52,116 bases of DNA from a virus: the IMG/VR virus record IMGVR_UViG_3300031227_004573, positions 1 through 52,116 of that record, one strand, 5' to 3'. Shown in pieces: positions 14,751 through 52,116 of the stretch (the stretch's first letter is position 1; every line of letters begins with the position of its first letter). Below the pieces are notes generated by a model. The model searched no databases, had not been told where the DNA came from, and worked only from the letters and a program-made list of their open reading frames with translations. The position numbers and the translations under genes are program-made.

Positions 14751-15100
14751 ACAAGCTAATGTTTATTAAAGTTAAGACCCAATTTGAAGCAGTGCATTGT
14801 TATCCTACAGCTCCTATAGCAGTTAAACATCTAAGAAGCAAGCATAGACACACTTTTTTTGTTAGTGTTTCTATAGAGGTTACAGATGAGAATAGACAAT
14901 TAGAATTCTACTTAGTTAAAGACTACATAGACACCGTTATTACTCATAAAGATTTGAATAGCCTATCTTGTGAGATGATTTGTGATGCGTATTATGGAGC
15001 TATACAAGAAAAGTACGGTAAAAGGAAAGTAATAGTGGAAGTAAGTGAAGATAACCAAAGAAGTGCTGTAACTTCTTATAATTTTAAAAAAGAGGAGTAA
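14747..15100 (+). CDS. PTPS/QueD-fold protein, divergent
   Basis: 117 residues with the tetrahydropterin-synthase zinc triad H17 (FEAVHC) and H33/H35 (KHRHTF), and E75 and E99 at the places of the catalytic glutamates. The cysteine that precedes LHGH in true QueD enzymes is absent: the segment is HLRSKHRHTF with no Cys. It therefore probably does not do normal QueD chemistry alone. It lies directly after folE2, and a canonical QueD is encoded 8 kb downstream. It may take a different pterin or be a partner subunit. Confidence 0.72.
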   Translation: MNKLMFIKVKTQFEAVHCYPTAPIAVKHLRSKHRHTFFVSVSIEVTDENRQLEFYLVKDYIDTVITHKDLNSLSCEMICDAYYGAIQEKYGKRKVIVEVSEDNQRSAVTSYNFKKEE

Positions 15101-15106: not shown

Positions 15107-15325
15107 GTGTTGTTTGGATACTTGTACAGGAAAGGACTAATAAAAAACGGAAGTAAACTATTTAACCTATGGTGTTGGTTGGCTTACCAAAGATGGTATC
15201 AAATGATGTTGATACCGATGCATGTAGTAAAAGGGTATTATTATGGATATTCAACAAAGCAGATTTATTATTTTTGTAAAGGGATTTTAAAGAATAAATT
15301 ATATAAGGAGAGATTAAAAATATGA
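15107..15325 (+). CDS. Unknown aromatic basic protein (GTG start)
   Basis: 72 residues from GTG 15107, nine bases after AGGAG. Very rich in Tyr, Trp, Phe and Lys (LWCWLAYQRWYQMML, GYYYGYSTKQIYYF). The segment around 22-38 could lie in or on a membrane, but spaced charges make a soluble aromatic helix equally possible. It is placed between the PTPS-like and DpdA-like genes and overlaps the latter by ATGA, so it may serve the modification pathway. No family recognised. Confidence 0.6.
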   Translation: MLFGYLYRKGLIKNGSKLFNLWCWLAYQRWYQMMLIPMHVVKGYYYGYSTKQIYYFCKGILKNKLYKERLKI

Positions 15326-16101
15326 AAATTTTTGTAATTCCGCCATTAAGACATCTAGATCTCGCACATATGGGAGATAAAGTATACTACGCACTGGCCC
15401 ACCTATACTATCAACATAAGCACTACAGGCAATTCTTTAAAGCTGCAGTTAAAAGGGGAGATTTTGTAACTTTAGACAACTCTGCTGCTGAGAAATCCTT
15501 AGTAACTGAAGATATTCTAATTGAAATTGTAAAAGACTTAAAACCTAGTGAAGTAATAGCTCCTGATATTCTTTTTGATAAAAATAAAACATTAAAAGCT
15601 TTAATTAGATTTATTAAAAGATTAAAAAAAGAGAATTTAAATAAGGTAGATGTGTTTGCTGTACCACAAGGAAAAACTAGAAAAGAGTGGTTAGAATGTT
15701 ACAAAGAAATGTTAAACAATCCTTATGTACAAGTCATAGGATTAAGTAAAATATCTACCTCTTGCTTCGTTAGAGGAGCAAAACCAGACCAGAGTATTAA
15801 GGAAGCTAGAAATAACTGTGTTAGGTACTTAAAAAAGCATAAGATGCTTACAAAACCCGTGCATTGTCTAGGTCAAGGAGATCCAACTGAGTTTCTGGCT
15901 TATAAGGGAATGAAAATGCTTAGAAGCACCGACTCTTGTAATCCTATATGGTCTGCTGTGAACGACATAGAGTTTGGAAAAGGAAAATTCAAACGAGTTC
16001 CAACTAATAACATGTATTTCTATAAAGAGTTGACTCAACCACAGTTGGAATTAGCTAAAAAAAATATTAAGTATTTAAAAGAGATAGTGAAGCAGGTATG
16101 A
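15322..16101 (+). CDS. dpdA: DpdA-like 7-deazaguanine DNA transglycosylase
   Basis: 259 residues related to tRNA-guanine transglycosylases of the phage DpdA type. Visible landmarks are TLDNSAAEK (near 51-59), EVIAPDILFD, FAVPQGKTRKEW, VIGLSKIS, then HCLGQGDPTEF and the closing RSTDSCNPIWSA. The TIM-barrel order D-N-S, A-P-D, PQG and G-L is that of this family. In known systems it exchanges guanine in DNA for preQ0 or a derivative. Next to folE2 and two PTPS genes, the context supports DNA modification. The zinc cysteine cluster of tRNA enzymes is not obvious. Confidence 0.8.
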   Translation: MKIFVIPPLRHLDLAHMGDKVYYALAHLYYQHKHYRQFFKAAVKRGDFVTLDNSAAEKSLVTEDILIEIVKDLKPSEVIAPDILFDKNKTLKALIRFIKRLKKENLNKVDVFAVPQGKTRKEWLECYKEMLNNPYVQVIGLSKISTSCFVRGAKPDQSIKEARNNCVRYLKKHKMLTKPVHCLGQGDPTEFLAYKGMKMLRSTDSCNPIWSAVNDIEFGKGKFKRVPTNNMYFYKELTQPQLELAKKNIKYLKEIVKQV

Positions 16102-22987: not shown

Positions 22988-23171
22988 TATAATACTCCAC
23001 GAACAAACCAACTACGATGGCTATTGTGAAATAGACGTACCTAGTCCATCTATACGAGAGCTACTTATAGAGCTAGTAAATACTCCAGTAATCAAAATAC
23101 CTTTTTGGATATTACAACACAAACAGCAATTAAAGAGTGTAGGAGTAGAATTAAAGGAGGAATCAAAATGA
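22974..23171 (+). CDS. Unknown 65-residue protein
   Basis: Starts at tandem ATGs overlapping the previous gene by 14 bases and ends just after the start of queD. Short strands (NYDGYCEIDVPSPS) lead to a helical C-terminal half (IRELLIELVNT, ILQHKQQLKSVGVEL). The ribosome site is weak. The 3' end contains the strong AGGAGG site that serves queD, so part of its sequence is constrained by that. Function unknown. Confidence 0.55.
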   Translation: MMKTNIILHEQTNYDGYCEIDVPSPSIRELLIELVNTPVIKIPFWILQHKQQLKSVGVELKEESK

Positions 23172-23533
23172 TAGGACAAATGAGATTAAGTTTAGAAAGA
23201 ACCTTTGAAGCAGCTCACTTTATACCTAAACATAAAGGTGCATGTAAAAATCTGCATGGACACTCGTACAGAGTAGGAGTAACTATAAATGGATTACACA
23301 ACTCTATAGATGGCATTTTTATAGATTTTGGAGACATCAAACATTTGATAGATGAGTTTGACCACTCTTTTTTAAATGATCGTTTTAAAATTCCTTCTGC
23401 AGAAAATCTTTCAAGATACTTTGGTTTAAAAATTCTTAGATTAAATAGAAATATACTTGAAGTAACAGTATCAGTGTACGAGACTGAAAACTGCGTAGCT
23501 AGTTCAACAGTATCTAGCTCCGCTACAAGTTAG
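23168..23533 (+). CDS. queD: 6-carboxytetrahydropterin synthase (QueD)
   Basis: 121 residues from ATG 23168, chosen because AAAGGAGG lies directly upstream; the frame opens earlier but without such a site. It has the QueD zinc histidines H17, H30 and H32, catalytic C26 (ACKNLHGHSY), the FDHSFLN segment with D65/H66, E79 in PSAENL and E105 in VYETENC. It converts dihydroneopterin triphosphate to 6-carboxytetrahydropterin, the second step toward preQ0. The Ser/Thr-rich tail is unusual but short. It complements FolE2 at 13.9 kb. Confidence 0.92.
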   Translation: MIGQMRLSLERTFEAAHFIPKHKGACKNLHGHSYRVGVTINGLHNSIDGIFIDFGDIKHLIDEFDHSFLNDRFKIPSAENLSRYFGLKILRLNRNILEVTVSVYETENCVASSTVSSSATS

Positions 23534-23541: not shown

Positions 23542-24006
23542 ATGAAATTATATTTTGCTCACAATTTTAATGATCGTAAAGAATTTAGAAAAATAGAACT
23601 TCAGTTAGAAAAAGAGTTAAGCATTGAACTAATGAATCCTTTTTATGATGTTCCAGAAAGAAAAGAAGAAATGCAAGAATTAGATGCAAGAAACGTCAAT
23701 TCAAAAACTAGAATTAAAAGTTTTAAGAACTCTTTTAATAGAGACCAGGAAAGTGCTGAGCTAATAGTCAAAAGAGACTTAGTACAGCTTGCAGGATGCG
23801 ATGGGTTACTTACTATAGTGGATAAGCCAAGCTTTGGTACGACTATAGAGCTATGTAATGCAGTTCTTATGAGAAAACCTGTGTACTTTATAAGTAATCT
23901 ATACTCTAGTCATCCTTGGATTAAAATATATGCTACCAAAACTTTTAAAAATATAGAAGAGTTTAAACAGTACATAAAATACTATAAATCGATACCTTAT
24001 GAGTAA
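23542..24006 (+). CDS. Second nucleoside deoxyribosyltransferase-like protein
   Basis: 154 residues: YFAHNFNDRKEF and IELMNPFYD open the fold, and IVKRDLVQLAGCDGLLTIVD with SFGTTIELCNAV provides the NDT-type ribose site and candidate catalytic Glu. PVYFISNLYSSHPWI follows. It is distinct from the larger homologue at 22.4 kb, so the phage carries two diverged members separated by queD. Substrate unknown; base exchange or hydrolysis of modified deoxynucleotides is likely. Ends inside the RNA ligase start. Confidence 0.75.
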   Translation: MKLYFAHNFNDRKEFRKIELQLEKELSIELMNPFYDVPERKEEMQELDARNVNSKTRIKSFKNSFNRDQESAELIVKRDLVQLAGCDGLLTIVDKPSFGTTIELCNAVLMRKPVYFISNLYSSHPWIKIYATKTFKNIEEFKQYIKYYKSIPYE

Positions 24007-25066
24007 ATTAATAGTAGAAGTCTGCAAAGTAGAAAAGATTGAAAAGCATCCTAATGCGGATAGACTCTCTATAGTTACTGTTAAAGGCTGGAACTGCGTC
24101 GTTAGTTTAGACCAATATAAGGAAGGGGACTTAGTTGTATACTGTCCACCTGACAGCCTAATTCCTGAAGACATAATCGAAAAATATAATCTAGAATTTC
24201 TAAAAAAGAATGGAAGGGTTGGAACCATTAAATTAAGAAAGTGCATATCTCAAGGTCTTATTTTAAGTATTCCAGAAGGAAAAACTTGGAAGAAAGGTAA
24301 AGACGTAGCTAAAGAATTGGGAATTGTTAAATACGAAGTTCCTGAGCCTAAGTTTCAACAATTTAAAGGTAATCGTCCTACTAAAAAGAAGAAAAATCCT
24401 CTATTTGACAAGTATACGGATATAAATAATATTAAAAATTATAACAACGTGTTTAAAGAAGGAGATTTAGTAGTAATAACAGAAAAAATTCACGGTACTA
24501 ACTTTAGAGCTGGTAGACTACCAAGATACACAGATAGTTTGTGGGGTAAAATAAAATCCCTTTTATTTGGCAAATATGAGTTCATATATGGGAGTCATCG
24601 TGTTCAAATAACTCATCACAATAATAGGCATTGTTTTTATGGAGAAGACGTATATGGTAAGATTGCTAAAAAATATAAATTAGCTGAAATTATCCCTGAA
24701 GATTATACTATATATGGAGAAATTTACGGTAAAGGAATTCAAGATTTAGAATATGGAAAAGAGGATACTGATATAATGTTTTTCGACGTGAAATACAAAG
24801 GAAACTACTTAGACTTTAATGATGCTAGAAAATTTATTGCTTCTTTGGGTTTACGCTATGTTCCTATACTCAGTTACGGAAAATATACACTAGAATCAGT
24901 AAAAGAGTACACAAATGGAACATCCATATTAGATCTAAAAACAATAAGAGAAGGATGCGTAATTAAACCCGTGAAAGAAGAAAATGATGTTAGAATAGGA
25001 AGAAAAATACTAAAAAGTGTTGGTGAAGAGTACCTATTAAGAAAAGGAGCAACAGAATACAAATGA
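23999..25066 (+). CDS. RNA ligase with N-terminal OB domain
   Basis: 355 residues. Residues 1-115 are an OB-type domain similar to the front domain of DraRnl-type ligases (VEKIEKHPNADRLSIVTVKG). The nucleotidyltransferase core follows: motif I KIHGTN with AMP-accepting K163, RVQITHHNN, YTIYGEIYGKG (E241 region) and motif V CVIKPVKE. The N-terminal OB placement is characteristic of nick-sealing RNA ligases that join 3'-OH to 5'-phosphate ends. With the kinase and phosphatase at 9.7-10.5 kb it completes an RNA repair set. It overlaps the preceding gene by 8 bases. Confidence 0.88.
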   Translation: MSKLIVEVCKVEKIEKHPNADRLSIVTVKGWNCVVSLDQYKEGDLVVYCPPDSLIPEDIIEKYNLEFLKKNGRVGTIKLRKCISQGLILSIPEGKTWKKGKDVAKELGIVKYEVPEPKFQQFKGNRPTKKKKNPLFDKYTDINNIKNYNNVFKEGDLVVITEKIHGTNFRAGRLPRYTDSLWGKIKSLLFGKYEFIYGSHRVQITHHNNRHCFYGEDVYGKIAKKYKLAEIIPEDYTIYGEIYGKGIQDLEYGKEDTDIMFFDVKYKGNYLDFNDARKFIASLGLRYVPILSYGKYTLESVKEYTNGTSILDLKTIREGCVIKPVKEENDVRIGRKILKSVGEEYLLRKGATEYK

Positions 25067-39007: not shown

Positions 39008-39379
39008 TCAGCTATGAGTCTTTCTTAGCTCTAACCTATAAGTTACAAAACCGTCTTGAGTAGATGCTATCTCCCAAGATACTGCTTTGCATCTAGTTAA
39101 AGTAAAGCTGCTAATGCCTCGATTCTCATCTGATGCTGATGCTAACAATACTACGTCTACATAAGTATTAGGTAGTACTGTGTCAGGGTCTAGATCGCCT
39201 GCGTACTCAGCGTAGTCTACAGAAATAGTAATAGCTCTATTGCCTACTTCTATTTCTAAAGGGTCTACATAACCTCCACCATAAAAATCTACGGGATTTC
39301 CATCAATTCTTACGGATATACCAGTACACTTCGCGATAGTATCTTCGCCTACTGTAATTCTTCCTACTGAAAATTTCAC
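39008..39379 (-). CDS. Tail tube protein
   Basis: 123 residues from GTG at 39379, seven bases after GGAGGG. Almost entirely beta (RITVGEDTIAKCTGISVRIDG, AITISVDYAEY, FVTYRLELRKT), with GGGYVDPLEIEVG in the middle. Gene order (tail terminator, this, chaperone pair, tape measure) marks it as the tube subunit. It is short for a major tail protein and lacks an added Ig domain. The leader has a hairpin and a motif repeated elsewhere. Confidence 0.78.
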   Translation of the reverse strand: MKFSVGRITVGEDTIAKCTGISVRIDGNPVDFYGGGYVDPLEIEVGNRAITISVDYAEYAGDLDPDTVLPNTYVDVVLLASASDENRGISSFTLTRCKAVSWEIASTQDGFVTYRLELRKTHS

Positions 39380-39911: not shown

Positions 39912-40379
39912 TTATTTTAAATATCTTTTTAAAGTGGGATCTATGTATCTGAAAGCACGAAGAGCTAACCAAGCCTCCGTTTTATCTACAAATCCGGTAC
40001 CCTTTAGTCTAAAACCTTTAGCTGACCTAGTAAATACTTGCTGTCCACCTACGTTAAATGCCATTGCTTTTTTATTTCTAGCACGTCTAGCAGGTATGTC
40101 GGCTCCAATGTCTACGAAAGGAGCGTAGGGAAACTGAGTTAAATCTGTGAATATCCTCAACTGAAGACCAAGACCTGGGATCGTTCTAGTGGTAATCCTG
40201 AAAGAATCCCTTAAATGGGGTTTACCTAAACTTGATATTGGAATATATGTTTTCATGTACTTGTATCCAGCAGTACCTAGCCTTCTTACGTCGTGCCTTA
40301 TTTTACTTAGGACATGGGTAAGTCGTTGGTGAAACTTATCTAAATCTTGAGTTTTAATTTTTACGTCTATACCTATCAT
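39912..40379 (-). CDS. HK97 gp10-like neck protein
   Basis: 155 residues. The N-terminal helix bundle (DLDKFHQRLTHVLSKIRHDVRRL) and PHLRDSFRITTRT, YAPFVDIGADIPARRARNKKAM follow the HK97-gp10 family, in which H-L-R-D-S and Y-A-x-[FY]-V-x-x-G are conserved. Such proteins sit at the head-tail junction. It overlaps the HNH gene stop (ATGA), so that element is inserted cleanly in the operon. Confidence 0.82.
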   Translation of the reverse strand: MIGIDVKIKTQDLDKFHQRLTHVLSKIRHDVRRLGTAGYKYMKTYIPISSLGKPHLRDSFRITTRTIPGLGLQLRIFTDLTQFPYAPFVDIGADIPARRARNKKAMAFNVGGQQVFTRSAKGFRLKGTGFVDKTEAWLALRAFRYIDPTLKRYLK

Positions 40380-40984
40380 TTGGTTACCTTTGCACCTTTC
40401 TTTATATTCTCATTAGCCCATAGGGGCTGTAAATTCTTCCAATTAAAACATTTTCTTTGATTCTTTGGTTTTGCTAGATCAAAAGAAGCACAAGGTCTTT
40501 TGTGGTCTACATGCCACTCTCCATAATTATCCCAAAACATACCTTTTTTGAATTGTTTTTCTAGATGTTCTTTTAGAAAATCTACAGAACAACCAATTAG
40601 TTTTATAGTGCGTTGAGACTTTACTCTTCCCTTGAGAGCAATCCATATTCGAGTTCTTAAATAGCAGAGCATCCTAAAGCTTGTATCTTGCCCTTTTCTT
40701 TTTTTTCCATACCCCCTATTGTACTCTCTCATACGTTTCCTAATTTCTTCCCTATGAGACTCTCTATACACTTTATCTCGTTTCTTAATTTCTTCTTTAT
40801 GAGTCTCACGATACTTTCTAGAAGAGGCGTTAAGAGCTTCCTTATGAGCCTCTCTGTACAGTTCTCTACGCTTTCTAGTATCTTCTCTGTGAGATGTGCG
40901 ATACTTTATACTTGCTTTTCTGACAGTGCTTCTATGAGTAGTACTATACTCTTTATCATACTCTTTTCTATTAAACTTTCTCAT
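40376..40984 (-). CDS. HNH homing-type endonuclease with N-terminal repeats
   Basis: 202 residues. Residues 1-95 hold about six imperfect 13- to 15-residue repeats of the form YRxSHREEIRKR, very basic and helical, likely DNA-binding. Residues 100-200 are a His-Me finger nuclease: WHVDHKRPCASFDL, then KCFNWKNLQPLWANENIKKGAK. Free-standing HNH genes of this kind are mobile in phages. It lies between two structural genes that normally touch and lacks a ribosome site, signs of an invader. It keeps an ATGA link to the next gene. Confidence 0.85.
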   Translation of the reverse strand: MRKFNRKEYDKEYSTTHRSTVRKASIKYRTSHREDTRKRRELYREAHKEALNASSRKYRETHKEEIKKRDKVYRESHREEIRKRMREYNRGYGKKRKGQDTSFRMLCYLRTRIWIALKGRVKSQRTIKLIGCSVDFLKEHLEKQFKKGMFWDNYGEWHVDHKRPCASFDLAKPKNQRKCFNWKNLQPLWANENIKKGAKVTK

Positions 40985-41321: not shown

Positions 41322-41918
41322 TTATACAGAGCGTACCTCTGGGTCAGTGCCACCTTTTCTGACTAAGACAGCTAAGTATTGTGCCCAATCGTCTAAAGAT
41401 TTAAACTCACCTTTAGCCATATTAGCGTACTTAACTGCATAATCTCCTATCTTCTCACTTACTACTGCTTGAGAGTGCTGAGTTAAATCAGGATTTAAAG
41501 AATAATATTGATTAACAGTAAGTATTACTAAAAGCATTTTTAATAGAGCAGTAACAGTAGTTCTATCCCAACCCACATCATAAGTTACTACAACTTTAGT
41601 TCCTTCAGATATCTGTGCATCGTATATAATTAGTCCTTGATCTTCAATAGTTCTATACTCATCGGTTTCAGAAGTCTCTACATCACTACCTGCAGATACC
41701 TGCTGAGTAATAGAAGTAACACTATTAATAGGATACGAGTCTAATTGAAGAATATCTGTTGCATCATAAATATAAAACTTTTGAGTTTTAGCTCCCTTAT
41801 GCAGAAAACCGATCATAGCTTCAGCTTGTGCTTCAGCATACGCAATTAGGGGATCCAGTGTACTACCACTCAATCCGGTAATAGTAAATATATCTGTCAA
41901 AGTTATTAAATGATTCAT
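41322..41918 (-). CDS. Head-tail connector (gp6-like adaptor)
   Basis: 198 residues. The fold starts with helices (LDPLIAYAEAQAEAMIGFL), then a strand block (ILQLDSYPINSVTSITQ, YRTIEDQGLIIY, TKVVVTYDVGW) and helices ending SLDDWAQYLAVLVR. This is the pattern of HK97 gp6/SPP1 gp15 adaptors that bind portal. It is preceded by GAGGAGG; its start overlaps the upstream stop as TAATG. Confidence 0.82.
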   Translation of the reverse strand: MNHLITLTDIFTITGLSGSTLDPLIAYAEAQAEAMIGFLHKGAKTQKFYIYDATDILQLDSYPINSVTSITQQVSAGSDVETSETDEYRTIEDQGLIIYDAQISEGTKVVVTYDVGWDRTTVTALLKMLLVILTVNQYYSLNPDLTQHSQAVVSEKIGDYAVKYANMAKGEFKSLDDWAQYLAVLVRKGGTDPEVRSV

Positions 41919-42445
41919 TATTTTGTATTCCTCCTCGTATTAGTTCTGTTCGTTGGAGACGTGAGTAACCAATAGTCTACAAATTTATAGTCTAATTTTC
42001 CTTCTTTAATCAACTCATGTAAAAAATAATTAAAATTAGTACTCTTAATAGTTTGTATATCCTCTGCTTTTAGTATAAATAATCCAGTATCTGCAATTCT
42101 ATAGTTATCAAACTTTAGAGTATGGTTGTCCACAGACCAAGTCTTTGAACCTTTAAGTTTTTTTAAAAATACCAAGCTCTTCTGCGTCTGGTTGTACTCT
42201 TTAATTAAGTCCTTGTATGCTGAAGGAGGAAAGAGTCTTAAACCAAAACTGATAATTATTTTATCAAATACCTGAGCGTACTCTTGGATCTTACTTAGAG
42301 TATCTCTTATCTCACACGTTTCGTACTTAGGGTCATTATATCTAGTATAAATCTTAACATAGTCCCCCTTTAAGTAATCTGGCATTTGAGGTCCTAACAT
42401 GTAGGACTGTTTATCGAACTTATTAAGAAAAATTAGTAGAATCAT
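41918..42445 (-). CDS. Shortened sugar-nucleotidyltransferase-like protein
   Basis: 175 residues. The middle and end (FDKIIISFGLRLFPPSAYKDL, then YRIADTGLFILKAEDI and FNYFLHELIKEGKLDY) resemble the second half of GT-A-fold sugar nucleotidyltransferases: the metal strand and D-T-G-x-F sugar-binding turn. The N-terminal NTP-binding loop (GGxGTR) is missing, so it is probably truncated or catalytically changed. It is the last gene of the decoration cassette, next to the connectors. AAGGAGGG ribosome site. Confidence 0.5.
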   Translation of the reverse strand: MILLIFLNKFDKQSYMLGPQMPDYLKGDYVKIYTRYNDPKYETCEIRDTLSKIQEYAQVFDKIIISFGLRLFPPSAYKDLIKEYNQTQKSLVFLKKLKGSKTWSVDNHTLKFDNYRIADTGLFILKAEDIQTIKSTNFNYFLHELIKEGKLDYKFVDYWLLTSPTNRTNTRRNTK

Positions 42446-42513
42446 AGAGAACCCTCCTTAATTGAAAACCTAAAACATAGAAACCTTTGCTGAGCTACTT
42501 TAAACTTGTTCAT
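42442..42513 (-). CDS. 23-residue micro-ORF linking LicD-like and nucleotidyltransferase-like genes
   Basis: ATG overlaps the upstream LicD-like stop (ATGA) and the TGA overlaps the downstream start (ATGA), so both ends are coupled. The peptide ends QRFLCFRFSIKEGSL. Its DNA contains AGGTTTTCAATTA at 42459-42471, shared with the tail-tube leader and nearly with the portal leader, followed at once by the next gene's AAGGAGGG site. It may be translated, or may exist to couple genes. Confidence 0.45.
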   Translation of the reverse strand: MNKFKVAQQRFLCFRFSIKEGSL

Positions 42514-43130
42514 ACTTCTAAAATCTCCTGTAAATACTTCTTTTCATTAAACTTTCCTTTTAAAAAATCTCTATAACGCGCTTTGTAAATAGGTTCTAAC
42601 TCTATAGAGCTCATGACCTTAGGAGTTTTCCAGTCTCTTCCATAGTACAAAGCTAGATGATCCTCAGTATGTGAGGGTACACTAAAAGTGTGCCCTTTAA
42701 AGGTGAGAGTGCTTAAATTATTTGTATACTTAGCGGGTTCTGCATAATATATATATTTATTTTTTCCAGTACACCATCTGTGTAAGGTCCAATCACCGCT
42801 TGGATAATAAATAAATATATCTGTATGTATTGGCCCTTTATCTAGACGCATTTGAGACACGGACTGAATCATTTTATTAGGGACCATACGTGTATAAAAT
42901 CCAGCCTTCTCTGCTTTTGCTATAATTTTATGTCTGGTAGGTATATCCCAATTGGCATAAAATATACATATGTCTACGTCTTTTAGATCCCAGGGAATAA
43001 ACTGACCTCTATATAGAGCTAATAGAGTTCCTCCTACTAAAAAATAAGGAATATCTAACTCCTTAAAAATCTTAGTAGCCTCCAGCAAATGGTTTAAATA
43101 ATCCTGCTCTTTAGTATTTAATAATTTCAT
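42510..43130 (-). CDS. LicD-like nucleotidyltransferase-fold transferase (1)
   Basis: 206 residues. FKELDIPYFLVGGTLLALYRGQFIPWDLKDVDICI shows the LicD core G-G-T-L-L-A-x-R-x-x-x-[FI]-[IP]-W-D-x-D-x-D, with the acidic metal pair at the end. LicD proteins transfer phosphocholine or similar groups from CDP carriers onto glycans. The shorter C-terminal domain differs from the second copy at 45.4 kb. It overlaps the aminotransferase gene. Substrate unknown. Confidence 0.75.
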   Translation of the reverse strand: MKLLNTKEQDYLNHLLEATKIFKELDIPYFLVGGTLLALYRGQFIPWDLKDVDICIFYANWDIPTRHKIIAKAEKAGFYTRMVPNKMIQSVSQMRLDKGPIHTDIFIYYPSGDWTLHRWCTGKNKYIYYAEPAKYTNNLSTLTFKGHTFSVPSHTEDHLALYYGRDWKTPKVMSSIELEPIYKARYRDFLKGKFNEKKYLQEILEV

Positions 43131-44335
43131 ATCTTTCTCTTATAGTACGCTGTGTAGAGCTCTTTTAAAGTGTGCTCTAAAATTTTAAAACTGCAATCAA
43201 TCTGCTTATAGCTTATAGTTAAAGCAGGTTTATATTTTAAAGTATAACCTAATCCAGAACATTTGTCCAAATTCATAATCACTCTATGTTCCAACATCTT
43301 CTGTACAATAAATTCTGCTAACTGCACACTAGGAGTACCCTTTAAATCTACTATTTCAACTCCTAACATGAGCCCTACTCCCTTTATACTACCAATAATT
43401 TTGTACTGTTTTTGAAGCTCCTTAAATTTATTCTTGATGTACTCACCTTTATCTAAAACTTTATTTAGTAAGTTGGGGGTTAACTGCTTTAAGTAAGCTA
43501 AAGAAGCAGCCATTGCAGGAGGAAAATGAGCAAAAGTAAAAGAGTGATCATCAGTTTCATACTTATACTTAGATTTACTTATAGTTCCAAAAAGAGGCAT
43601 GCCTCCTCCCATAGCTTTTCCAAAAGTAATAATATCTGGAATAACTTTATAGTCATTTGATAAAAAAATACAACCACATCTACCAAAAGCAGTTTGGATT
43701 TCATCTACAATCATAGTAACATGAAATTTGTTGCACAATTCTCGAATACCCCTCACTAATTTAATAGGAAGAGGATGCATCCCTCCGTTGCCCTGTATAA
43801 GCTCTATTATAATAGCGCTTGGATTATACTTTTTAATTTTTAGTTCTATATCTCTAATACTCTTCTTACACTCTATGGCTTTACCATAAAAAGACTTAAA
43901 TTTTTTATTCTGATGTTTCCAAGTTATAGACATAGTTCCAAAGGTTCTTCCATGAAACCCATCTTCTAAGTACAAAATAGTACCACTTCCTACTTTGTAG
44001 TTTAAAGACAGCTTCATAGCTCCCTCGTTGGCCGCAGAACCGTGTAAACAAAAGTCGATCTTACCATTTTTTATGGGAGATATTTTACTAAGTTTTTTAG
44101 CTAAGTTTAATTTAGGAACAGTATAGTAGTGAGTTCTACAATGGGGTAACTTTTTAACTTGCTCTAAAATAGCTTTGTTTATTTTTTTATTTCCATATCC
44201 TAAATTCATCGTCCAAGCAGTTGCTGTTAAGTCTAGGTACCTACGTCCTTTATTATCGTAAAGATAAACTCCTTCACCTCTATCCATAATGATATCTTTC
44301 GATTTCTTTAATAAATACTTTTTAGATCTAATCAC
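43127..44335 (-). CDS. Class III PLP-dependent aminotransferase
   Basis: 402 residues from GTG at 44335, eight bases after GGAG. All class III landmarks are present: LHGSAANEGAMKLS, GFHGRTFGTMS, D211 in IVDEIQTAFGR, and the PLP lysine K240 in ITFGKAMGGGMP. Family members move amino groups onto ketoacids, semialdehydes or keto-sugars such as ornithine-type substrates. In this surface-chemistry cassette it may make an amino side group later acetylated or methylated. This cargo is inferred. Confidence 0.9.
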   Translation of the reverse strand: MIRSKKYLLKKSKDIIMDRGEGVYLYDNKGRRYLDLTATAWTMNLGYGNKKINKAILEQVKKLPHCRTHYYTVPKLNLAKKLSKISPIKNGKIDFCLHGSAANEGAMKLSLNYKVGSGTILYLEDGFHGRTFGTMSITWKHQNKKFKSFYGKAIECKKSIRDIELKIKKYNPSAIIIELIQGNGGMHPLPIKLVRGIRELCNKFHVTMIVDEIQTAFGRCGCIFLSNDYKVIPDIITFGKAMGGGMPLFGTISKSKYKYETDDHSFTFAHFPPAMAASLAYLKQLTPNLLNKVLDKGEYIKNKFKELQKQYKIIGSIKGVGLMLGVEIVDLKGTPSVQLAEFIVQKMLEHRVIMNLDKCSGLGYTLKYKPALTISYKQIDCSFKILEHTLKELYTAYYKRKI

Positions 44336-45398
44336 TTCGAATCTCCATTACTTCGGCTCTAGCCTTGTTAAATCCAAATGTAGAATAAAAAGACTCTTTA
44401 CCTTTTGCAGAAAATAAAAAAATCTTAATAAAAGTTCCTTGCTTAATCCATTTTACTACCTTGTCCATTAATAAAAAACCAAGACCTAACTTCTGATATT
44501 TAGGATGTACCATAACATCCCATACACTCCAATAAAAAGTATTATCACCAAATACACGAGCATATCCTATTAATTTTTTATGATATCTAATACTGAAAGA
44601 AGTTACATTTTTTAGAGCTTTATCCTCTAGCTTTAAACTTCTTTTACTTAAATGAAATCCTTTAAACTGCATCTCCCCCATTAGCTCTAGTAACTCTTCT
44701 GCTTTAACCTTGGGATCTATTTCTATTTTAGCCTCAAATAGTACTCGAGCCTTTGCGTAGTCCTCTAAAGTATCTACTTCGTACCACTTACTGTCTTTAG
44801 GAATTAGAATAGTCTTAAAGTGATGTCTAATAAAGTAAAATCCACATGATTTAGTTCCGTCTAGCTCCCTCCATAAAAAAGGAAGAGTTTCCTTACTAAT
44901 GTGTATTAGTCCGGTATCTCCATAGGAGCTATCTACACTAAATCCTACTAGCTCATCTTTATGAGTAGTTACTCCTAAGTCAGAAGAATTAATTTTATGA
45001 GTAGACATTAAATAGCTGGACTTTCTACTGTCTACAGCCTTCTTTAGTACATCCTTATCCCAAATAGTATCTCCCATCATTAAAATAATGTCTCTCTGAA
45101 AACCTATAGTTTTAATTCCTATCTTTAAGCTTAAACTATTTTCTTTCTTAAATTCAGGATTAAAAGCAAAGGTAACACCTTTTATTCTCTTTTTTAATTC
45201 TGCATCAAATTTACCTGTAACTACACATATCTTTTTAATTCCTAGAGATTTGAGTAATCGAATTTGTCTATGTAGTAACGTTTCATTCTGGATTTTTAAA
45301 AAACCTTTAACGATACCTCCACACCTACGGCCCAGACCACCGGCTAGTATTATTGCTACTTTATTACAGTTCTTGCTCATTTTAAAAACTCGTTCCAT
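44328..45398 (-). CDS. Nucleotidyltransferase-GNAT fusion
   Basis: 356 residues. The N-terminal nucleotidyltransferase has ILAGGLGRR (18-25), NPEFKKENSLSLKIGI and MMGDTIWD, closest in layout to LicC/PntC-like cytidylyltransferases, ending in YEVDTLEDYAKA. The C-terminal GNAT has VHPKYQKLGLGFLLMDKVV (acetyl-CoA loop). It would activate a phospho- or sugar compound with CTP or another NTP and acetylate an amine. ATG 45398 has GGAG upstream; ATG 45380 overlaps the previous stop and is an alternative start. Confidence 0.82.
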   Translation of the reverse strand: MERVFKMSKNCNKVAIILAGGLGRRCGGIVKGFLKIQNETLLHRQIRLLKSLGIKKICVVTGKFDAELKKRIKGVTFAFNPEFKKENSLSLKIGIKTIGFQRDIILMMGDTIWDKDVLKKAVDSRKSSYLMSTHKINSSDLGVTTHKDELVGFSVDSSYGDTGLIHISKETLPFLWRELDGTKSCGFYFIRHHFKTILIPKDSKWYEVDTLEDYAKARVLFEAKIEIDPKVKAEELLELMGEMQFKGFHLSKRSLKLEDKALKNVTSFSIRYHKKLIGYARVFGDNTFYWSVWDVMVHPKYQKLGLGFLLMDKVVKWIKQGTFIKIFLFSAKGKESFYSTFGFNKARAEVMEIRSD

Positions 45399-46006
45399 TT
45401 CAGTTTTCTCCAGTCATTAATTAAAGGAGTTTTCCAATCTACATAAATATAATCTAAAAAATACTCAGCATCGCTAGGTATCCAAAATTTTCTTTGTCTA
45501 AACTTCAACACTTTGAGAGGCATTACTTTATCTTTGTGAAAATCTCCCCGTATAGCCGGAATTAAATGATATTTATTTTTTATAGCATAAGAAGTCCAAA
45601 TATCAATAGTAAAATTACTGTTAGGAGCCCTACCGTGTAAGTGACCAGGACAAAATTTAGCTTTAAGTAGATTTAGCTTAGACAATACATCAGTAATCCT
45701 ATAAAACTCAGCTTTTACTTCCTTACTAGTTGTTTTAGAGCTAAAATAAGCCATATCTACGTCGTAATCGTGAGGAATAAAATCCTTCTCTCTTAGAGCT
45801 CCTATTAGAGTTCCTGCAGTTAAATATAGGTTATACCCAAACTGCTCTCTAAAAAGATCCTCCATTTGCTTCATACCTTGGATTAGCTCCTGTTTAACTT
45901 TCTCAGTTCGTTTGTAAAAAAAGAGTTTATCTCTAACTTTTCCCTCTTTAACTAACTGTTTTACCTTTTCTACATTAGTTAAGTTACTAAATTTATCGTT
46001 CTTCAT
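45377..46006 (-). CDS. LicD-like nucleotidyltransferase-fold transferase (2)
   Basis: 209 residues. YLTAGTLIGALREKDFIPHDYDVDMAYF is the LicD core with its D-x-D pair; CPGHLHGRAPNSNFTIDIW and the closing IYVDWKTPLINDW follow the same family. It is more complete than the copy at 42.5 kb. Proposed role is phospho-group transfer from a nucleotide-activated donor, which the neighbouring fusion enzyme could provide. Weak ribosome site, likely coupled. Confidence 0.78.
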   Translation of the reverse strand: MKNDKFSNLTNVEKVKQLVKEGKVRDKLFFYKRTEKVKQELIQGMKQMEDLFREQFGYNLYLTAGTLIGALREKDFIPHDYDVDMAYFSSKTTSKEVKAEFYRITDVLSKLNLLKAKFCPGHLHGRAPNSNFTIDIWTSYAIKNKYHLIPAIRGDFHKDKVMPLKVLKFRQRKFWIPSDAEYFLDYIYVDWKTPLINDWRKLKWNEFLK

Positions 46007-46007
46007 A

Positions 46008-46556
46008 TTATTTCTTCTGAATTAACCAATCTTTATTCCAATCCTTTACGTTGTCCTCTCCAGGGGAGCACCAAGCTACTACTTTAAGATTATACTTTTT
46101 AGCAAAATCTTGAACAGCTCGAAATGTATCATAAGTTCCGTAGTCGTGTCCTGCTAAAAAAGTACCTTTTTTAACTTTAGGATACCACGCTTCCATATCC
46201 GCTAATACAGGCTCGTAACTATGGTCTCCGTCTATGTACACGTAATCAAAATAATTATCAGGAAAAATAGTAGACGCTTTAATAGATTGTTGAATGATCA
46301 TAGTGACTTTATCCGTATAAGGTATCATCCTATTGCGACATTCTAATAGAGCTTCATTTAAATCTTCTTGATTATACCCAGTGACTTGACGCTCATATTG
46401 CCAGTACTCCTTATAAGAATCAATCAAGAAAAGTTTATATACATTCATTTTAACTAGACGCAGAGCATTACCTCCTTTAAAATTGCCTATTTCCGCTACT
46501 GTAAGCGGGTGTTTAATCCTCTGTGAAACGTATAGTGCTGATTTTCTTTCATACAT
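46008..46556 (-). CDS. Class I SAM methyltransferase, copy 1
   Basis: 182 residues from ATG 46556, which has AAAGGAG eight bases upstream; an earlier TTG is rejected. VAEIGNFKGGNALRL is the SAM loop, LFLIDSYK the acidic ribose strand, and FDYVYIDGDHSYEPVLADMEAWYPKVKKG the catalytic core of TylF/Methyltransf_24-type sugar O-methyltransferases. It is a tandem paralogue of the next gene upstream, sharing whole blocks of protein and DNA. Substrate probably a sugar of the decoration. Confidence 0.83.
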   Translation of the reverse strand: MYERKSALYVSQRIKHPLTVAEIGNFKGGNALRLVKMNVYKLFLIDSYKEYWQYERQVTGYNQEDLNEALLECRNRMIPYTDKVTMIIQQSIKASTIFPDNYFDYVYIDGDHSYEPVLADMEAWYPKVKKGTFLAGHDYGTYDTFRAVQDFAKKYNLKVVAWCSPGEDNVKDWNKDWLIQKK

Positions 46557-46821
46557 ACTTTTTACTCCTTTATAACTAACCAATCTTTTGTTTCATCAGG
46601 AACCCTAGGAGTTCTTATAGGACACCACGATATAACTTTTAATCCTTTTAATTTCGCAAATTGATTTATTGCTTTTTCAGGTCCTACTGAATTATAATCG
46701 TGTCCTGCTAAAAATCCTCCCTTTCTTACTTTAGGATACCAAACTTCAACATCTTTTTTAACTTCACTGTATTTGTGAGCACCGTCTATGTACACGTAAT
46801 CAAAATAATTATCAGGAAAAA
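46228..46821 (-). repeat. 40-bp perfect direct repeat in tandem methyltransferase genes
   Basis: Positions 46228-46267 and 46782-46821 are identical over 40 bases, 554 bases apart. Both encode the FPDNYFDYVYIDG segment of the two methyltransferases, in the same frame. Identity even at third codon positions is more than protein conservation needs, while flanking parts have diverged. This suggests gene conversion between the copies. Shorter shared blocks (TCGTGTCCTGCTAAAAA) occur nearby. Confidence 0.85.
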
Positions 46822-47128
46822 GAAGAACTGCTTCTGTCGACTTTTGAATAATTATAGTAACCTTATCCATAAACTTTAAAGTTATATTGTGCGCCTCTAT
46901 TAGAGCCTTATCTAATATCTGCTGATTGTACCAATCTTTTTGTTGATTAAAATCTTTGTATCCAATATATGGATCTATTAAATAGAGCTCACTGAGGTCT
47001 AGATGAGCTAATCTAAAGGCATTACCCCCTCTAAAAGTTCCTACTTCCGCAATCCTATATGGAGGTTTCATGTGCTCTACTAAGTATATAGTAGATTTTC
47101 TATAATTAAAATTTTTAGGATTATCCAT
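46562..47128 (-). CDS. Class I SAM methyltransferase, copy 2
   Basis: 188 residues, preceded by AGAGGAGG. IAEVGTFRGGNAFRL (SAM loop), LYLIDPYIGY, FDYVYIDGAHKYSEVKKDVEVWYPKVRKG and FLAGHDYN match copy 1 block for block. The copies differ most in the first 20 and last 40 residues and in the loop after the ribose strand (ID-P-Y-I-G-Y against ID-S-Y-K-E-Y), so they may methylate different positions of one product. Confidence 0.83.
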   Translation of the reverse strand: MDNPKNFNYRKSTIYLVEHMKPPYRIAEVGTFRGGNAFRLAHLDLSELYLIDPYIGYKDFNQQKDWYNQQILDKALIEAHNITLKFMDKVTIIIQKSTEAVLLFPDNYFDYVYIDGAHKYSEVKKDVEVWYPKVRKGGFLAGHDYNSVGPEKAINQFAKLKGLKVISWCPIRTPRVPDETKDWLVIKE

Positions 47129-47149
47129 AATAAATATACCTCCTCTTAC

Positions 47150-47914
47150 TCATACGTCTAGAGTAGACCTTCTATCTACTCTAACTTTATCAAAGTAAGT
47201 ACTCTCAACTATCTGAAGAGACTCGCACTCACTAAATCTCTTGTAAAATTCATCCTTCTTAATACAAGCACAAAAAGTTAATCTTCCTTTATTTACTAAT
47301 ACTTTTTTTTGAACAAAAATATACTTAAAACCAGCATCTTTAAGCCAATGTATAACGCAGCTTTTATTAGGACCACACCAATCAGTATTAGCTTCTCCAT
47401 AGAATAAAGATAGAGGAATCTCTCCTCCGTAATTAACTATGTGACTTCTTAGTATTAGTGTTGAGGTGCACACTTTTCTAATAGTATCTATTGCAAGTAG
47501 TGGATGTCTTAAGTGGTACAAAAGTCCATACATAAATACTAGATCAAATGTTCCATGAGTCTTAGCCTTAATATCATACACACCAGCACATTCTCTATTA
47601 ACTTTTGAATTTAATATTTTTTTAATTTTATAAAAATTAGTATTTTTACTCATTCTTCCTATATACTTTTTAGGTATTCCATCAAATCCCCAGTCATACT
47701 TTTCGTAGGTATCTACATCCGTAGATAGAACATTTTGAGAACCCCTCTTTTCTGCCCAGAAACTCCAAAATCCATCATTAGCAGCAATATCTAAAACTGA
47801 CTTACCTGATAAGGCTATATCTTCTATGTTTAATCTCTTAGGTTCTCTACGATAGTCTATATGACCCTCAGTAGCTTCTCCATTAGGTAAATCAATAACC
47901 ATATAAGTTTTCAT
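47150..47914 (-). CDS. SAM methyltransferase, CmoB/DUF1698-like
   Basis: 254 residues. VLDIAANDGFWSFWAEKRGS is the SAM-binding loop and FDLVFMYGLLYHLRHPLLAIDTIRK the following catalytic strand-helix, in the pattern of CmoB/DUF1698-like enzymes. NYGGEIPLSLFYGEANTDWCGP gives a substrate-binding region. It differs from the tandem pair next to it, so the cassette carries two types of methylation. AAAAAGGAG ribosome site before the ATG. Confidence 0.8.
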   Translation of the reverse strand: MKTYMVIDLPNGEATEGHIDYRREPKRLNIEDIALSGKSVLDIAANDGFWSFWAEKRGSQNVLSTDVDTYEKYDWGFDGIPKKYIGRMSKNTNFYKIKKILNSKVNRECAGVYDIKAKTHGTFDLVFMYGLLYHLRHPLLAIDTIRKVCTSTLILRSHIVNYGGEIPLSLFYGEANTDWCGPNKSCVIHWLKDAGFKYIFVQKKVLVNKGRLTFCACIKKDEFYKRFSECESLQIVESTYFDKVRVDRRSTLDV

Positions 47915-50900
47915 TTAGTACTCCTTTTTAAAATATTCTTCTGAACTTAGCTCTAATCTATCTACTAGTTGATCGCTATCACAAAAAATAGAGTAATAAT
48001 TACAAATAAAATAAATAAATTTATCTTTTACTTTTTGATCAATCTTGAACTTATCAAGTTTTTTGTATAAATCCTTAAAATCTTCTAGAGTTCTCATTTG
48101 AAACACCAACTTATCATTATCACAAAAGTGGTAGCCCACTGTTGCAAACTTTTTATTTTGAATTAGTCCTTCAAACGTAGTTGTCGAGCTATAGGTAGTA
48201 AAGTTATCAAAGATACTAAAAAGAGAATTTATATTCTCATCTATCTTTACTATATTCTTATAGTTGTATATGTAGTCCATTAGTTGAGCATCTCGTTTTT
48301 TTATTGTATTGTACACTGGATGAGCTTTAAATAAGAAGGTGGTATCTAGGTTATTTGTTACTAAGTGATGTATGTAATCTTTATAGTCTTTAATTTCTGT
48401 ATTTTTACTATGAATAATACTTTTGTCGCAGACCTCTTGACCCAATAATACTATATACTTGGATCTATACGAAAGACCATACTTCTTAAAGAGTTCCTTT
48501 TTAGTAATGTTCTGAGGTTGTCGTACCTTTGTCCAACTAGGAATATTTGGTTTTTTATTAATTTTTATAGAGTCAATATACTTTTTAATATCATTACTTG
48601 GATCGAAGTGCGCTCCTGTTCTATCAAATACATTTTTAACACCTAAAAAGGCTTCATTAAATAACCAATTTATGTCTCTTTGTTGACATATCTTTTTAAG
48701 TGTCTCAGGAGGATAGTCTACGCTCACAACGCTATCTGGCTCTATCTTGTCTATATACTCCTCTAAATTTGCTACAGGATCTTTTTGAAAAATTAATTGA
48801 TACTTTTCGTTTAGTTTGCTATTATCTCTAAAATATCGATGGTATTTTGCCCCCACTCTATATATCAAAAGTTTTTTCTTTTTTGCAACCCTATTTTTAA
48901 GTTCTTCAAAATTATTTATTATTTTATCTTCAGGGATCTCTTTGTTGCATTTATGATCAGGACGAAAACAATTACAAAAAGGTTCTGGAGTTACTTGTCC
49001 ATACTTACTTAAATCCATTCCCTTTTCTAAGTATAACTCAGGTTTTTGACATCCTCCATATAGACCAAAAGTCCTAGTTCCTGTAGCTAGAGCCATAGGT
49101 AACAAATAGCAATTAGGAGATATAACCATATCAGCTAGTTTAACTAATCCAAATAAGTCCTCCAAAGAGAGTTCTCCTCTGTGGAAAGCATAGTCTATAT
49201 TTTTTGGTTTTTTAGTAAAATACTCAAATTCTAAATCTGCTATAGATATAAAAAAATACTCTTTCTTATACTTATCTATTAGTAATTGCATGTACCCAGG
49301 TTTGGGATCTCTTGCAGGGCACCGCCACTCTCGTCTTTGAGTTGGAAAATGAACTATACAAAGCTTTCTATGACCTATATATATCTTCTTACAAATGGTT
49401 TTTGCTCTGTCTATCCACTCTTGTTTAGGAGTAAAAGAAAAGTCGTATGTAGTAATAGGTAGTACTTTTTGAAATTGTTGTCCTATACTCAGTCCTTTTT
49501 TAAACCCCTTCCAGTATTCGGGTTTAATTACTTTTTTGTAATTAGAGGGCATAGGATAGAATAAATCTTTAGACATTTTATCAGCTAACTTATTATGATG
49601 TTTAAACCCTTTATGAGGAGTTCTAACAGGTTTAAGATTAGGAATATCCCAGTATACTTGAGGAGTAAAAGTCATTAAATAAAGCTCTTTATCTTTACAA
49701 AAATCTTTTATAAAAGGTCTTTGCCAGAAATTATCTCCTATACCTGCATACCCCTCCATAAAAAAAGGCGCTTCTTTGCTCTCTTTCGCGAGGATTAGTG
49801 GTTTATTAGACTTACTAATTTCTTTAAATTTATCTAGAATTACATCAGGAGTGATAGTTCTTAGGCAATAGCCCTCTTCCTTTTGAGTACACATTCTATC
49901 CTCAGGAGCCACCCATTGCCTATCACTGCAAGGATAACATGGTACTTTAGTTTTATCGGGTACTAAAGGATAACAATTTTTATAAGTTGAGCACCTCCAC
50001 TCCGCTGGAATATGCCCCATTATAGCTATAGTAGGTTTATCTAGAGCCCCTGCTACATGTAATACACCAGTATCTGCAGTAATTACACAGTCTAATTGAT
50101 TTATAAGAGCAAATAACTGCCTCATACTTGTTTTTCCTACTAAGTCTATACAATCCTCAAATTTGAATTTCTGAGTTCCCAGCATAATAGGAGTATATCC
50201 TAAAGACGTTAATTTAGTGCATAACTTTTGAGTATAGTCTCTAAAGTAGGACCTATGACTGCTATAAGAATACCAACATACTCCTACTGTTTTTTTGTAC
50301 TTTTTTAAGAGCTCTGTAGCATATTCCTTTTCTTCTTTACTTAATACTATAGTAGGTTTTAATGTTACTAAATCTTGATTTCTTAATCCACATAAATAAG
50401 CAGTTGAATAGACTCTGTGCTGTTTATTAAAATCTAGACTGTATTCACTTAATCTTCCACTAAGAGACACATAAGATTTAACAAGATGTAAAGGAATTTG
50501 AGTGCTAGAAGTATATACTTTATCTACAAAATCTAAATTATCTAAAATAGAAGCATTACCAGGTTCTACGGAATACTGAACTTTCCAACCTAAAGAATGT
50601 AAGGTTTTTGCAGTGGGTAGAGACATTAATACATCTCCCATACCATCATAAGTCTCAATTACAAATGTTTTGTCTTGCTGTAACTTTTTAGATATTTGTT
50701 TTAAAATAGGTAAGTCTTTAGAATCAGTGATAACTGGAAGTTCTGCTCCATACTGACTAGCAAATAATTTAGCTTTAACTTTTGCACTAGTTACGTTATT
50801 ATGGAATACTGCCTTTATTCCTTGAGGATTTTTAAATAATAGATGAGAGAACCACCTCTGTTTAGTCTCTACATACACTATACGGTCGTGCTTAATAGCA

Positions 50901-51139
50901 TTAACGGGCATTTGAGTGCATACATATACAATATTTATATTCTTAGTTAATAATTGCTCGATAAAAGCAACGTCCAAAGGGGTGTTATCGTCGTGATATC
51001 CATATCCTAGAACAGTGTATTCAGTATCTATGGCGGTAAATACAGCTATTCCCTGACTAGTATAAAAACTATCTGATTGTTTCGATTTGTAATATATTAA
51101 AGTTTGACGTAGGTGGGGATTTGAATTTAAATATAACAT
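47915..51139 (-). CDS. Three-domain glycosyltransferase (GT9-GT9-capsule type)
   Basis: 1,074 residues, the largest protein here. After an N-terminal segment (1-155), residues about 159-445 form a GT9 heptosyltransferase-like domain (TYDGMGDVLMSLPTAKTL, VITADTGVLHVAGALDKPTIAIMG). Residues 457-745 are a second, diverged GT9 (GYAGIGDNFW, MVISPNCYLLPMALATGT). Residues about 755-1074 resemble capsule polysaccharide GT-B enzymes (FLFKAHPVYN, SLFSIFDNFTTYSSTTTFEGL). It could add two or three sugars in series. Acceptor unknown, perhaps capsid. The AAGGAG site is only two bases from the ATG. Confidence 0.82.
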   Translation of the reverse strand: MLYLNSNPHLRQTLIYYKSKQSDSFYTSQGIAVFTAIDTEYTVLGYGYHDDNTPLDVAFIEQLLTKNINIVYVCTQMPVNAIKHDRIVYVETKQRWFSHLLFKNPQGIKAVFHNNVTSAKVKAKLFASQYGAELPVITDSKDLPILKQISKKLQQDKTFVIETYDGMGDVLMSLPTAKTLHSLGWKVQYSVEPGNASILDNLDFVDKVYTSSTQIPLHLVKSYVSLSGRLSEYSLDFNKQHRVYSTAYLCGLRNQDLVTLKPTIVLSKEEKEYATELLKKYKKTVGVCWYSYSSHRSYFRDYTQKLCTKLTSLGYTPIMLGTQKFKFEDCIDLVGKTSMRQLFALINQLDCVITADTGVLHVAGALDKPTIAIMGHIPAEWRCSTYKNCYPLVPDKTKVPCYPCSDRQWVAPEDRMCTQKEEGYCLRTITPDVILDKFKEISKSNKPLILAKESKEAPFFMEGYAGIGDNFWQRPFIKDFCKDKELYLMTFTPQVYWDIPNLKPVRTPHKGFKHHNKLADKMSKDLFYPMPSNYKKVIKPEYWKGFKKGLSIGQQFQKVLPITTYDFSFTPKQEWIDRAKTICKKIYIGHRKLCIVHFPTQRREWRCPARDPKPGYMQLLIDKYKKEYFFISIADLEFEYFTKKPKNIDYAFHRGELSLEDLFGLVKLADMVISPNCYLLPMALATGTRTFGLYGGCQKPELYLEKGMDLSKYGQVTPEPFCNCFRPDHKCNKEIPEDKIINNFEELKNRVAKKKKLLIYRVGAKYHRYFRDNSKLNEKYQLIFQKDPVANLEEYIDKIEPDSVVSVDYPPETLKKICQQRDINWLFNEAFLGVKNVFDRTGAHFDPSNDIKKYIDSIKINKKPNIPSWTKVRQPQNITKKELFKKYGLSYRSKYIVLLGQEVCDKSIIHSKNTEIKDYKDYIHHLVTNNLDTTFLFKAHPVYNTIKKRDAQLMDYIYNYKNIVKIDENINSLFSIFDNFTTYSSTTTFEGLIQNKKFATVGYHFCDNDKLVFQMRTLEDFKDLYKKLDKFKIDQKVKDKFIYFICNYYSIFCDSDQLVDRLELSSEEYFKKEY

Positions 51140-51165: not shown

Positions 51166-51191
51166 CTAGTAGGGGTTTGACCCCCTACTAG
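51166..51191 (-). terminator. Terminator hairpin after capsid gene
   Basis: A perfect 10-base stem, CTAGTAGGGG at 51166-51175 with CCCCTACTAG at 51182-51191 and a six-base loop, lies 16 bases after the capsid stop. Read on the - strand it is followed by TTTAATTTAG, a broken T run. It probably ends most capsid transcripts and lets a fraction pass into the decoration and tail genes, giving high capsid and lower enzyme levels. Confidence 0.75.
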
Positions 51192-51206: not shown

Positions 51207-52116
51207 TCAGCTTCCAGAAGCATAAAGCTCAACTACGCCTTCGTAGTTTCCACTACTATTCTTTAGTTGTGCCTTAAAATCTATCTCTTCAGCGATAATT
51301 ATTCTCTTAGAGAACGTATCTACTAAATCCTTAGTTCTGAAAAATACATTCTTCCTAATACCTGAAACAAAAGCATCCTTTCTTACTAGGATAGCGATAC
51401 CGTTGCCACTATTAAGTGCGTCAAGATGTGTGGTCTCTATGACTTTAACACCCAAAATAGGAGGAATATTTCCAGTCTTAAGCAAATCAGAATCTACGCG
51501 GTAAGATTGATTGTAAACTCTGTCTTCTTTTCTCAATTTGAGAGCAGCAGCAGAATCAGCAAACAACATTAACTTACTAGGATCAGATCCATAAATCCCT
51601 AGAGCGCTTCTAGCTTGTGCTATCTTATCTGTCAAAGCATCTGCGGCGTCGTAGGAAATTTTTGTGGTTGCACCAACAAAAGTTCCATCAGCGTGAGCTA
51701 CTTTATAGATACCATCACACAGCTTGTCGTAAGTTTGCGTACCAGCAGCATAAACTCCTTTCAACATCGCGAGTTCTTCTGCTTCGGCTAACTTAGTAAC
51801 AAGAGTCTGACGAATCCACTTAGCAAGATCAATACTTGCAGTTTCCAGATCGTCTTCTATGATGTCAACGTAAGCTACTAAAAGTCTAGGAATAAGAATG
51901 ACTGAACCAGTGTTAACAGACTGCTCTGTGTTACCAGTTACATCTGTACCATAACCTATAACTCTTACAGTATTAGCACCATAAGTAACAACCGGAATAG
52001 TTAAATTCCGAGCGTTCTTAGGAACTGTAATAGAAGCAAAAAACCTGCGAAGGTAATTTAGCTCTTGCAGCTCTGCTACAACTTTAGAAGTTACGGGTCG
52101 AGGCATGTCATCACCG
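51207..52116 (-). CDS. Major capsid protein (HK97-fold), open at window edge
   Basis: At least 299 residues from ATG 52106; the frame stays open for the remaining 10 bases of the window and no ribosome site is visible there, so the start is probably outside. The sequence has the HK97 pattern: N-arm, E-loop/P-domain stretch (VPVVTYGANTVRVIGYG-type), a spine helix (SIDLAKWIRQTLVTKLAEAEELAML), A-domain (PSKLMLFADSAAALKL, PPILGVKVIET) and a closing strand (RIIIAEEIDFKAQL). A cleavable N-terminal scaffold or protease gene may lie beyond the edge. Confidence 0.88.
   Translation of the reverse strand, partial: GDDMPRPVTSKVVAELQELNYLRRFFASITVPKNARNLTIPVVTYGANTVRVIGYGTDVTGNTEQSVNTGSVILIPRLLVAYVDIIEDDLETASIDLAKWIRQTLVTKLAEAEELAMLKGVYAAGTQTYDKLCDGIYKVAHADGTFVGATTKISYDAADALTDKIAQARSALGIYGSDPSKLMLFADSAAALKLRKEDRVYNQSYRVDSDLLKTGNIPPILGVKVIETTHLDALNSGNGIAILVRKDAFVSGIRKNVFFRTKDLVDTFSKRIIIAEEIDFKAQLKNSSGNYEGVVELYASGS

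Follow-up and report, generated by a model that had tools for sequence, protein, structure and literature searches.

A putative exchangeable virion-decoration locus beside the major capsid gene of an uncultured phage

Gene content of the capsid-adjacent cassette

Our analysis concerns a block of eight enzyme genes in a 52,116-bp IMG/VR virus record (IMGVR_UViG_3300031227_004573), a metagenomic contig of an uncultured phage whose full length forms the window. The block sits between the major capsid gene (51207–52106) and a gene for a 175-aa protein, which is followed by head-tail adaptors, and all eight open reading frames (ORFs) are present on the minus strand at the coordinates listed below. 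The original prediction, that eight co-directional surface-chemistry enzymes lie between the capsid and head-tail connector genes, was thus confirmed in its ORFs, strand and families. Because the gaps within the block are tight (−22 to +21 bp), with margins of 67 bp to the capsid gene and 64 bp to the 175-aa gene, the eight genes, which we refer to as the cassette, look like one transcription unit. The capsid ORF reaches the contig end and the corresponding proteins of related phages are ~26 residues longer, it is therefore probably truncated at its N-terminus (the 5′ end of the gene) by the end of the contig. The related phages named in the list (L002, L009 and L007) are described further on.

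51207–52106, minus strand: major capsid protein (MCP), HK97 fold family (Phage_capsid, 4e-12; 49–53% identity to the MCPs of L002, L009 and L007)
51166–51191, minus strand: RNA hairpin immediately downstream of the MCP stop codon (z −2.7 to −3.8 across four phages)
47915–51139, minus strand: 1074-aa multi-domain glycosyltransferase (GT) (Glyco_transf_9, PF01075, 1.8e-15; Capsule_synth, 2e-7; phrog_6804, 1.5e-31)
47150–47914, minus strand: S-adenosylmethionine (SAM)-dependent methyltransferase, CmoB/TIGR04290-like (PF08003, 1e-8; TIGR04290, 3e-20; DIAANDG at residue 42)
46562–47128, minus strand: Methyltransf_24 protein, TylF-like sugar O-methyltransferase type (Methyltransf_24 match; SAM motifs present)
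46008–46583, minus strand: Methyltransf_24 protein, tandem paralogue of the 46562–47128 gene (Methyltransf_24 match; SAM motifs present)
45377–46006, minus strand: LicD-family phosphotransferase-like protein 1 (Pfam LicD; canonical GTLIGALR65 and PHDYDVD78)
44328–45398, minus strand: LicC/PntC/inositol-phosphate-cytidylyltransferase-like domain (residues 13–221) fused to a GNAT domain (~250–350) (NTP_transf_3, 4e-14; GNAT, 2e-11)
43127–44335, minus strand: class III pyridoxal-phosphate (PLP) aminotransferase (Aminotran_3, PF00202, 1.1e-72)
42510–43130, minus strand: LicD-family protein 2 (Pfam LicD; variant GTLLALYR34 and WDLKDVD47)
41918–42445, minus strand: 175-aa core protein with a GT-A/nucleotidyltransferase-like predicted fold (homologues in three phages; AlphaFold2 (AF2) model; Foldseek)
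41322–41918, minus strand: head-tail adaptor, the conserved right flank of the slot (phrog_442, 5e-10; pairwise identities)

The cassette enzymes retain their catalytic motifs

Families were assigned by Pfam, NCBIfam and PHROG (phrog_) profile matches, which bore out the predicted enzyme types (glycosyltransferase, methyltransferases, LicD, nucleotidyltransferase-GNAT and aminotransferase), and a check for decayed active sites found the catalytic motifs retained in all eight. In the 1074-aa protein the GT9 domain extends to residue ~445, followed by the phrog_6804 GT domain (460–738) and the Capsule_synth domain (852–1014); the "three-domain glycosyltransferase" of the prediction therefore holds for three recognisable GT regions, to which an N-terminal stretch of ~155 residues (~1–155) with no family match has to be added. 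The GT9 domain, which matches PDB 1psw, keeps DGMGD165 and DTGVLHVAG356, the DGxGD and DTGxxHxA loops of that family, and the Capsule_synth domain keeps KAHP938 and SSTTTFE984. The AF2 model of the GT9 protein has a predicted confidence (pLDDT) of 58, too weak for placing its N-terminal region.

The two Methyltransf_24 proteins match Pfam at 4e-14 and 6e-15 and are 49% identical to each other. Both LicD proteins lie above the Pfam cut-off (2e-8 and 5e-7, over the motif region only) and carry the GTLxGxxR ... PxDxDxD signature, and LicD protein 2 weakly matches the diacylglycerol cholinephosphotransferase Mf1 (NF045866, 5e-16, under the cut-off). The nucleotidyltransferase (NTP) domain keeps LAGGLGRR18, MGDT108 and WYEVDT205, including the N-terminal LAGGxGxR and metal-site Asp (GD) of MobA/LicC-like enzymes, and matches PDB entries 2xme, 6pd1 and 1jyk. 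We assign it to the LicC, PntC and inositol-phosphate cytidylyltransferases, at 25–30% identity, a level that does not decide between CTP and other nucleotides or whether phosphocholine or 2-aminoethylphosphonate is its substrate. The fused GNAT domain keeps QKLGLG302, and the adjacent aminotransferase has intact PLP-binding Asp and Schiff-base Lys motifs (DEIQ211, FGKAMGGG238), as expected of class III; this fusion and this neighbour together suggest an activated compound with an N-acetylated amine. Membrane-type hydrophobic segments are absent from the cassette proteins, whose highest 19-residue mean is 1.61, and the cassette lacks the membrane flippase or membrane-bound transferase of serotype-conversion (gtr-type) systems.

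A variable slot in related phages

Relatives sharing the capsid and 175-aa genes are rare, three records being found in 2.9 million viral contigs: L002 (67 kb), L009 (66.9 kb) and L007 (7.6 kb), each of which may be incomplete. The gene order in L002 is MCP, GT9 (443 aa), polysaccharide pyruvyl transferase (PS_pyruv_trans), a second GT9 (298 aa), the 175-aa homologue and the connector. L009, whose genes were assigned through alignment to those of L002, has MCP, GT9 (445 aa), pyruvyl transferase and a 169-aa homologue of the 175-aa protein. In L007 the slot is empty, the 175-aa homologue coming directly after the capsid gene. The occupied slots of the three phages thus hold glycan enzymes only, each starting with the same GT9 gene, a phage-encoded glycosyltransferase linked to structural genes. 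Residues 1–445 of the 1074-aa protein are 46–47% identical to the GT9 proteins of L002 and L009. As the GT9 domain is about as conserved (46–50% identity) as the capsid (49–64% among the four phages), the two genes have most likely been inherited together, and the link between them is probably old.

Of the block, the GT9 gene was recovered at the same place in two relatives. LicD, Aminotran_3 and Methyltransf_24 were sought and not found in the L002, L009 and L007 records, within the limits of their possible incompleteness. Single-protein scans of IMG/VR returned no relatives of the NTP-GNAT protein or the aminotransferase, and the NTP-GNAT protein, LicD protein 1 and the CmoB-like methyltransferase had no relative in the phage collection.

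Such a pattern could also arise if the slot were a hot spot for unrelated accessory cargo, leaving the cassette without a dedicated virion role. Slot content differs in every relative and is lacking altogether in L007, and an endonuclease VII-like (HNH-type) gene (40376–40984) is inserted nearby, between two head-tail joint genes, a place where L002, L009 and L007 have none. However, unrelated cargo would not be expected to consist of glycan enzymes in all three occupied slots, behind the same first gene, with every cassette motif intact, and we consider this explanation quite unlikely. The intact motifs, and the restriction of the other two occupied slots to glycan enzymes, make a glycan or phospho-group decoration system a well supported reading of the cassette.

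A putative virion-decoration locus

With modest confidence, we read the block as a virion-decoration locus of exchangeable content, with the capsid gene on one side and the 175-aa and connector genes on the other, and expressed together with the late structural genes. In the cytoplasm, its GT9 anchor enzyme and the further GT domains would assemble a short sugar chain on a virion protein. The aminotransferase would aminate a small compound, either phosphorylated or sugar-like, the GNAT domain would N-acetylate the amine, and the fused LicC/PntC-like domain would activate the product with CTP. The two LicD proteins might then transfer the phospho-group to this chain, with the three methyltransferases capping hydroxyls or amines. 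The resulting coat would differ from one related phage to another, as serotypes do, altering adsorption, stability or recognition. A more specific version, that of a tailed-phage lineage with a serotype-like slot fixed between the capsid gene and the GT-A-like 175-aa protein, in which LicD here caps a virion glycan with a phospho-group that has been aminated, N-acetylated and activated as a CDP compound, giving a phosphodiester-decorated particle, we offer tentatively and hold to be doubtful.

The same enzymes might instead change the surface glycan of the infected cell (lipopolysaccharide core, capsule or a teichoic-like polymer), blocking superinfection or aiding release. In bacteria, surface glycans are the targets of the GT9 (heptosyltransferase), Capsule_synth, LicD and LicC-like families (PMC6697681 for PntC/LicC/LicD), and soluble enzymes of these kinds can operate on the inner face of the membrane. 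The cassette, however, lies within the late structural block, is without a flippase or membrane protein, and has a GT9 anchor co-inherited with the capsid gene. Owing to this position, the soluble enzymes and the GT9-capsid co-inheritance, the virion is favoured over the host surface as acceptor, and we consider the host-surface explanation unlikely. On the virion, the capsid and the tail tube are candidate acceptors. The decoration system first proposed therefore stands as a glycan or phospho-group system with the virion as its favoured target, whilst the 175-aa gene drops out of it as a cassette enzyme.

One candidate acceptor emerged from a comparison of single-phage differences in nine core proteins across the four phages.

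39008–39379, minus strand: tail-tube-like protein, candidate glycan acceptor (exploratory; weak tail-protein match, identity mainly from gene position)

In this protein 23 of 39 singleton differences are specific to L007, versus 78 of 354 (22%) in the other eight (Fisher p 3e-6). The core tree groups L007 with L002, so the excess is not a matter of simple distance; it would fit relaxed constraint on a glycan acceptor after the slot was emptied. The result is exploratory, as it was found by looking over nine genes with a sample of one loss. L007 also carries an 86-aa gene with no family match just before the tail-tube-like gene (L007:5213–5473), which is not there in the other three phages.

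Several points weigh against a virion-decoration locus. Only one phage has the seven genes that follow the GT, and the slot is dispensable, being empty in L007. In bacteria GT9, LicD and Capsule_synth enzymes usually build cell-surface glycans, which makes a host-surface target possible. Virion decoration is here predicted from the genes of a metagenomic contig, and the pathway order and product are guesses from enzyme families. Finally, the tail-tube signal comes from a single empty-slot phage, where recombination of the gene could explain it equally. Should the virion reading hold, the surface chemistry of phage particles would be variable and match bacterial serotypes in elaborateness, with its genes at a fixed place next to the capsid gene, giving a simple rule for locating virion-glycan loci in uncultured phages and making the role of particle glycans in adsorption, stability or recognition testable.

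The boundaries of the slot

The 175-aa protein that closes the slot has full-length counterparts in the three other phages, at 70%, 54% and 60% identity. As it is conserved at full length even in the phage without a cassette, its gene is a core gene. The "shortened nucleotidyltransferase-like gene" of the original prediction is accordingly neither shortened nor a cassette enzyme, and its status as a decayed nucleotidyltransferase was rejected on its full length, the 54–70% identity in three phages and the model fold. A relationship to nucleotidyltransferases may persist at the fold level, since the AF2 model (4 sequences, pLDDT 69) matches GT-A/nucleotidyltransferase folds in Foldseek (RmlA, KdsB and FKRP; best E 1.4e-5, TM ~0.5; viral matches similar). 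As read from the sequence, the protein has no LAGGxGxR signature, and FGLRLFP stands at the usual GD position. It could be part of the glycan machinery, for example as a priming or docking factor. Scans of GTDB genomes with the protein and with a DNA pattern for its gene found nothing.

At the other boundary, a strong hairpin follows the capsid gene at the same position in all four phages, in sequences that differ and are unrelated, and is possibly an attenuator or mRNA-stabilising element. In this phage and in L002 the ribosome-binding sequence AGTAGAAGGAG comes next, ahead of the GT start. L007 has the same motif, as AGTAGAAGGGG, at 2719, followed by a mini-ORF of only about ten codons (read from the sequence). 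The motif is also used by other genes of these phages. Its presence in L007 fits a leftover ribosome-binding site of a deleted first slot gene, in one phage.

Other genes of the phages

Outside the cassette, the phage carries a FolE2-type GTP cyclohydrolase gene and two 6-pyruvoyl-tetrahydropterin-synthase (QueD-like) genes (13899–14750, 14747–15100 and 23105–23533), which suggest a 7-deazaguanine (queuosine-type) pathway. A nearby gene (15322–16101; phrog_20335) may encode a transglycosylase-like enzyme. These FolE2 and QueD-like genes give some substance to a further explanation of the cassette, that its glycosyltransferases modify phage DNA, as DNA-modifying phage GTs are known (Pyle et al. 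2024, as cited in PMC12619734). Yet the FolE2 and QueD-like genes sit in an opposite-strand block, and the relatives keep GT9 next to the capsid gene. GT9, Capsule_synth and LicD are, to our knowledge, not recognised as DNA glycosyltransferase families, and we regard DNA modification as very improbable.

The phage also has its own RecA of bacterial type (10771–11754; 1e-105), as well as an RNA ligase that includes an OB-fold domain (23999–25066). In L002 and L009 a metallo-beta-lactamase/DNA-ligase fusion lies upstream of the prohead protease (L002:3874–8757, L009:4982–8854); a LAGLIDADG intein splits the copy in L002, and the one in L009 apparently lacks it.

Comparison with known systems

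Relatives of the middle GT domain (phrog_6804) occur in 28 phage records, at ~29% identity. We viewed the neighbourhoods in D3 (orf12–13), Synechococcus phage BUCT-ZZ01 and Klebsiella phage Eowyn, and in all three a phrog_6804 GT is followed by a Methyltransf_23 gene near virion structural genes (the Eowyn neighbour carries the annotation 'structural protein'). Unrelated phages thus repeatedly have a GT and a methyltransferase side by side close to structural genes. These pairs resemble the cassette in their GT, a homologue of the 1074-aa protein's middle domain (~29% identity over 26% of the query), in a methyltransferase partner and in structural genes nearby, but consist of two genes, with no adjacent LicD, nucleotidyltransferase or aminotransferase in the stretches read.

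LicC/LicD phosphocholine and PntC/LicD phosphonate systems tailor bacterial surface glycans, LicD proteins transferring such phospho-groups to the glycans (PMC6697681), a role also familiar from the LicD family in general. The cassette shares with them a LicC/PntC-like cytidylyltransferase domain and LicD proteins. It has no choline kinase among its genes (no search aimed at a phosphoenolpyruvate mutase was made). PntC occurs in fusion with an aminotransferase, as in the AEPT fusion of Treponema denticola (PMC6697681), whereas here the aminotransferase is separate and of class III, and the fusion partner is GNAT.

In mycobacteriophages, glycans are reported on the C-termini of capsid and tail tube proteins (Freeman et al. 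2023, as cited in PMC12619734; also PMC10955285). As far as these sources relate, that system is like the present one in its phage-encoded glycosyltransferases, and there virion proteins (capsid and tail tube) carry the glycans. The locus described here differs in its eight-gene block with LicD, cytidylyltransferase-GNAT, aminotransferase and three methyltransferases, and in being known from its genes. Full-text literature searches, judged by titles and abstracts, returned no description of a LicD/cytidylyltransferase/aminotransferase block beside a capsid gene. Phage-encoded virion glycosylation is already known, and such a block beside the capsid gene is a variant of that kind.

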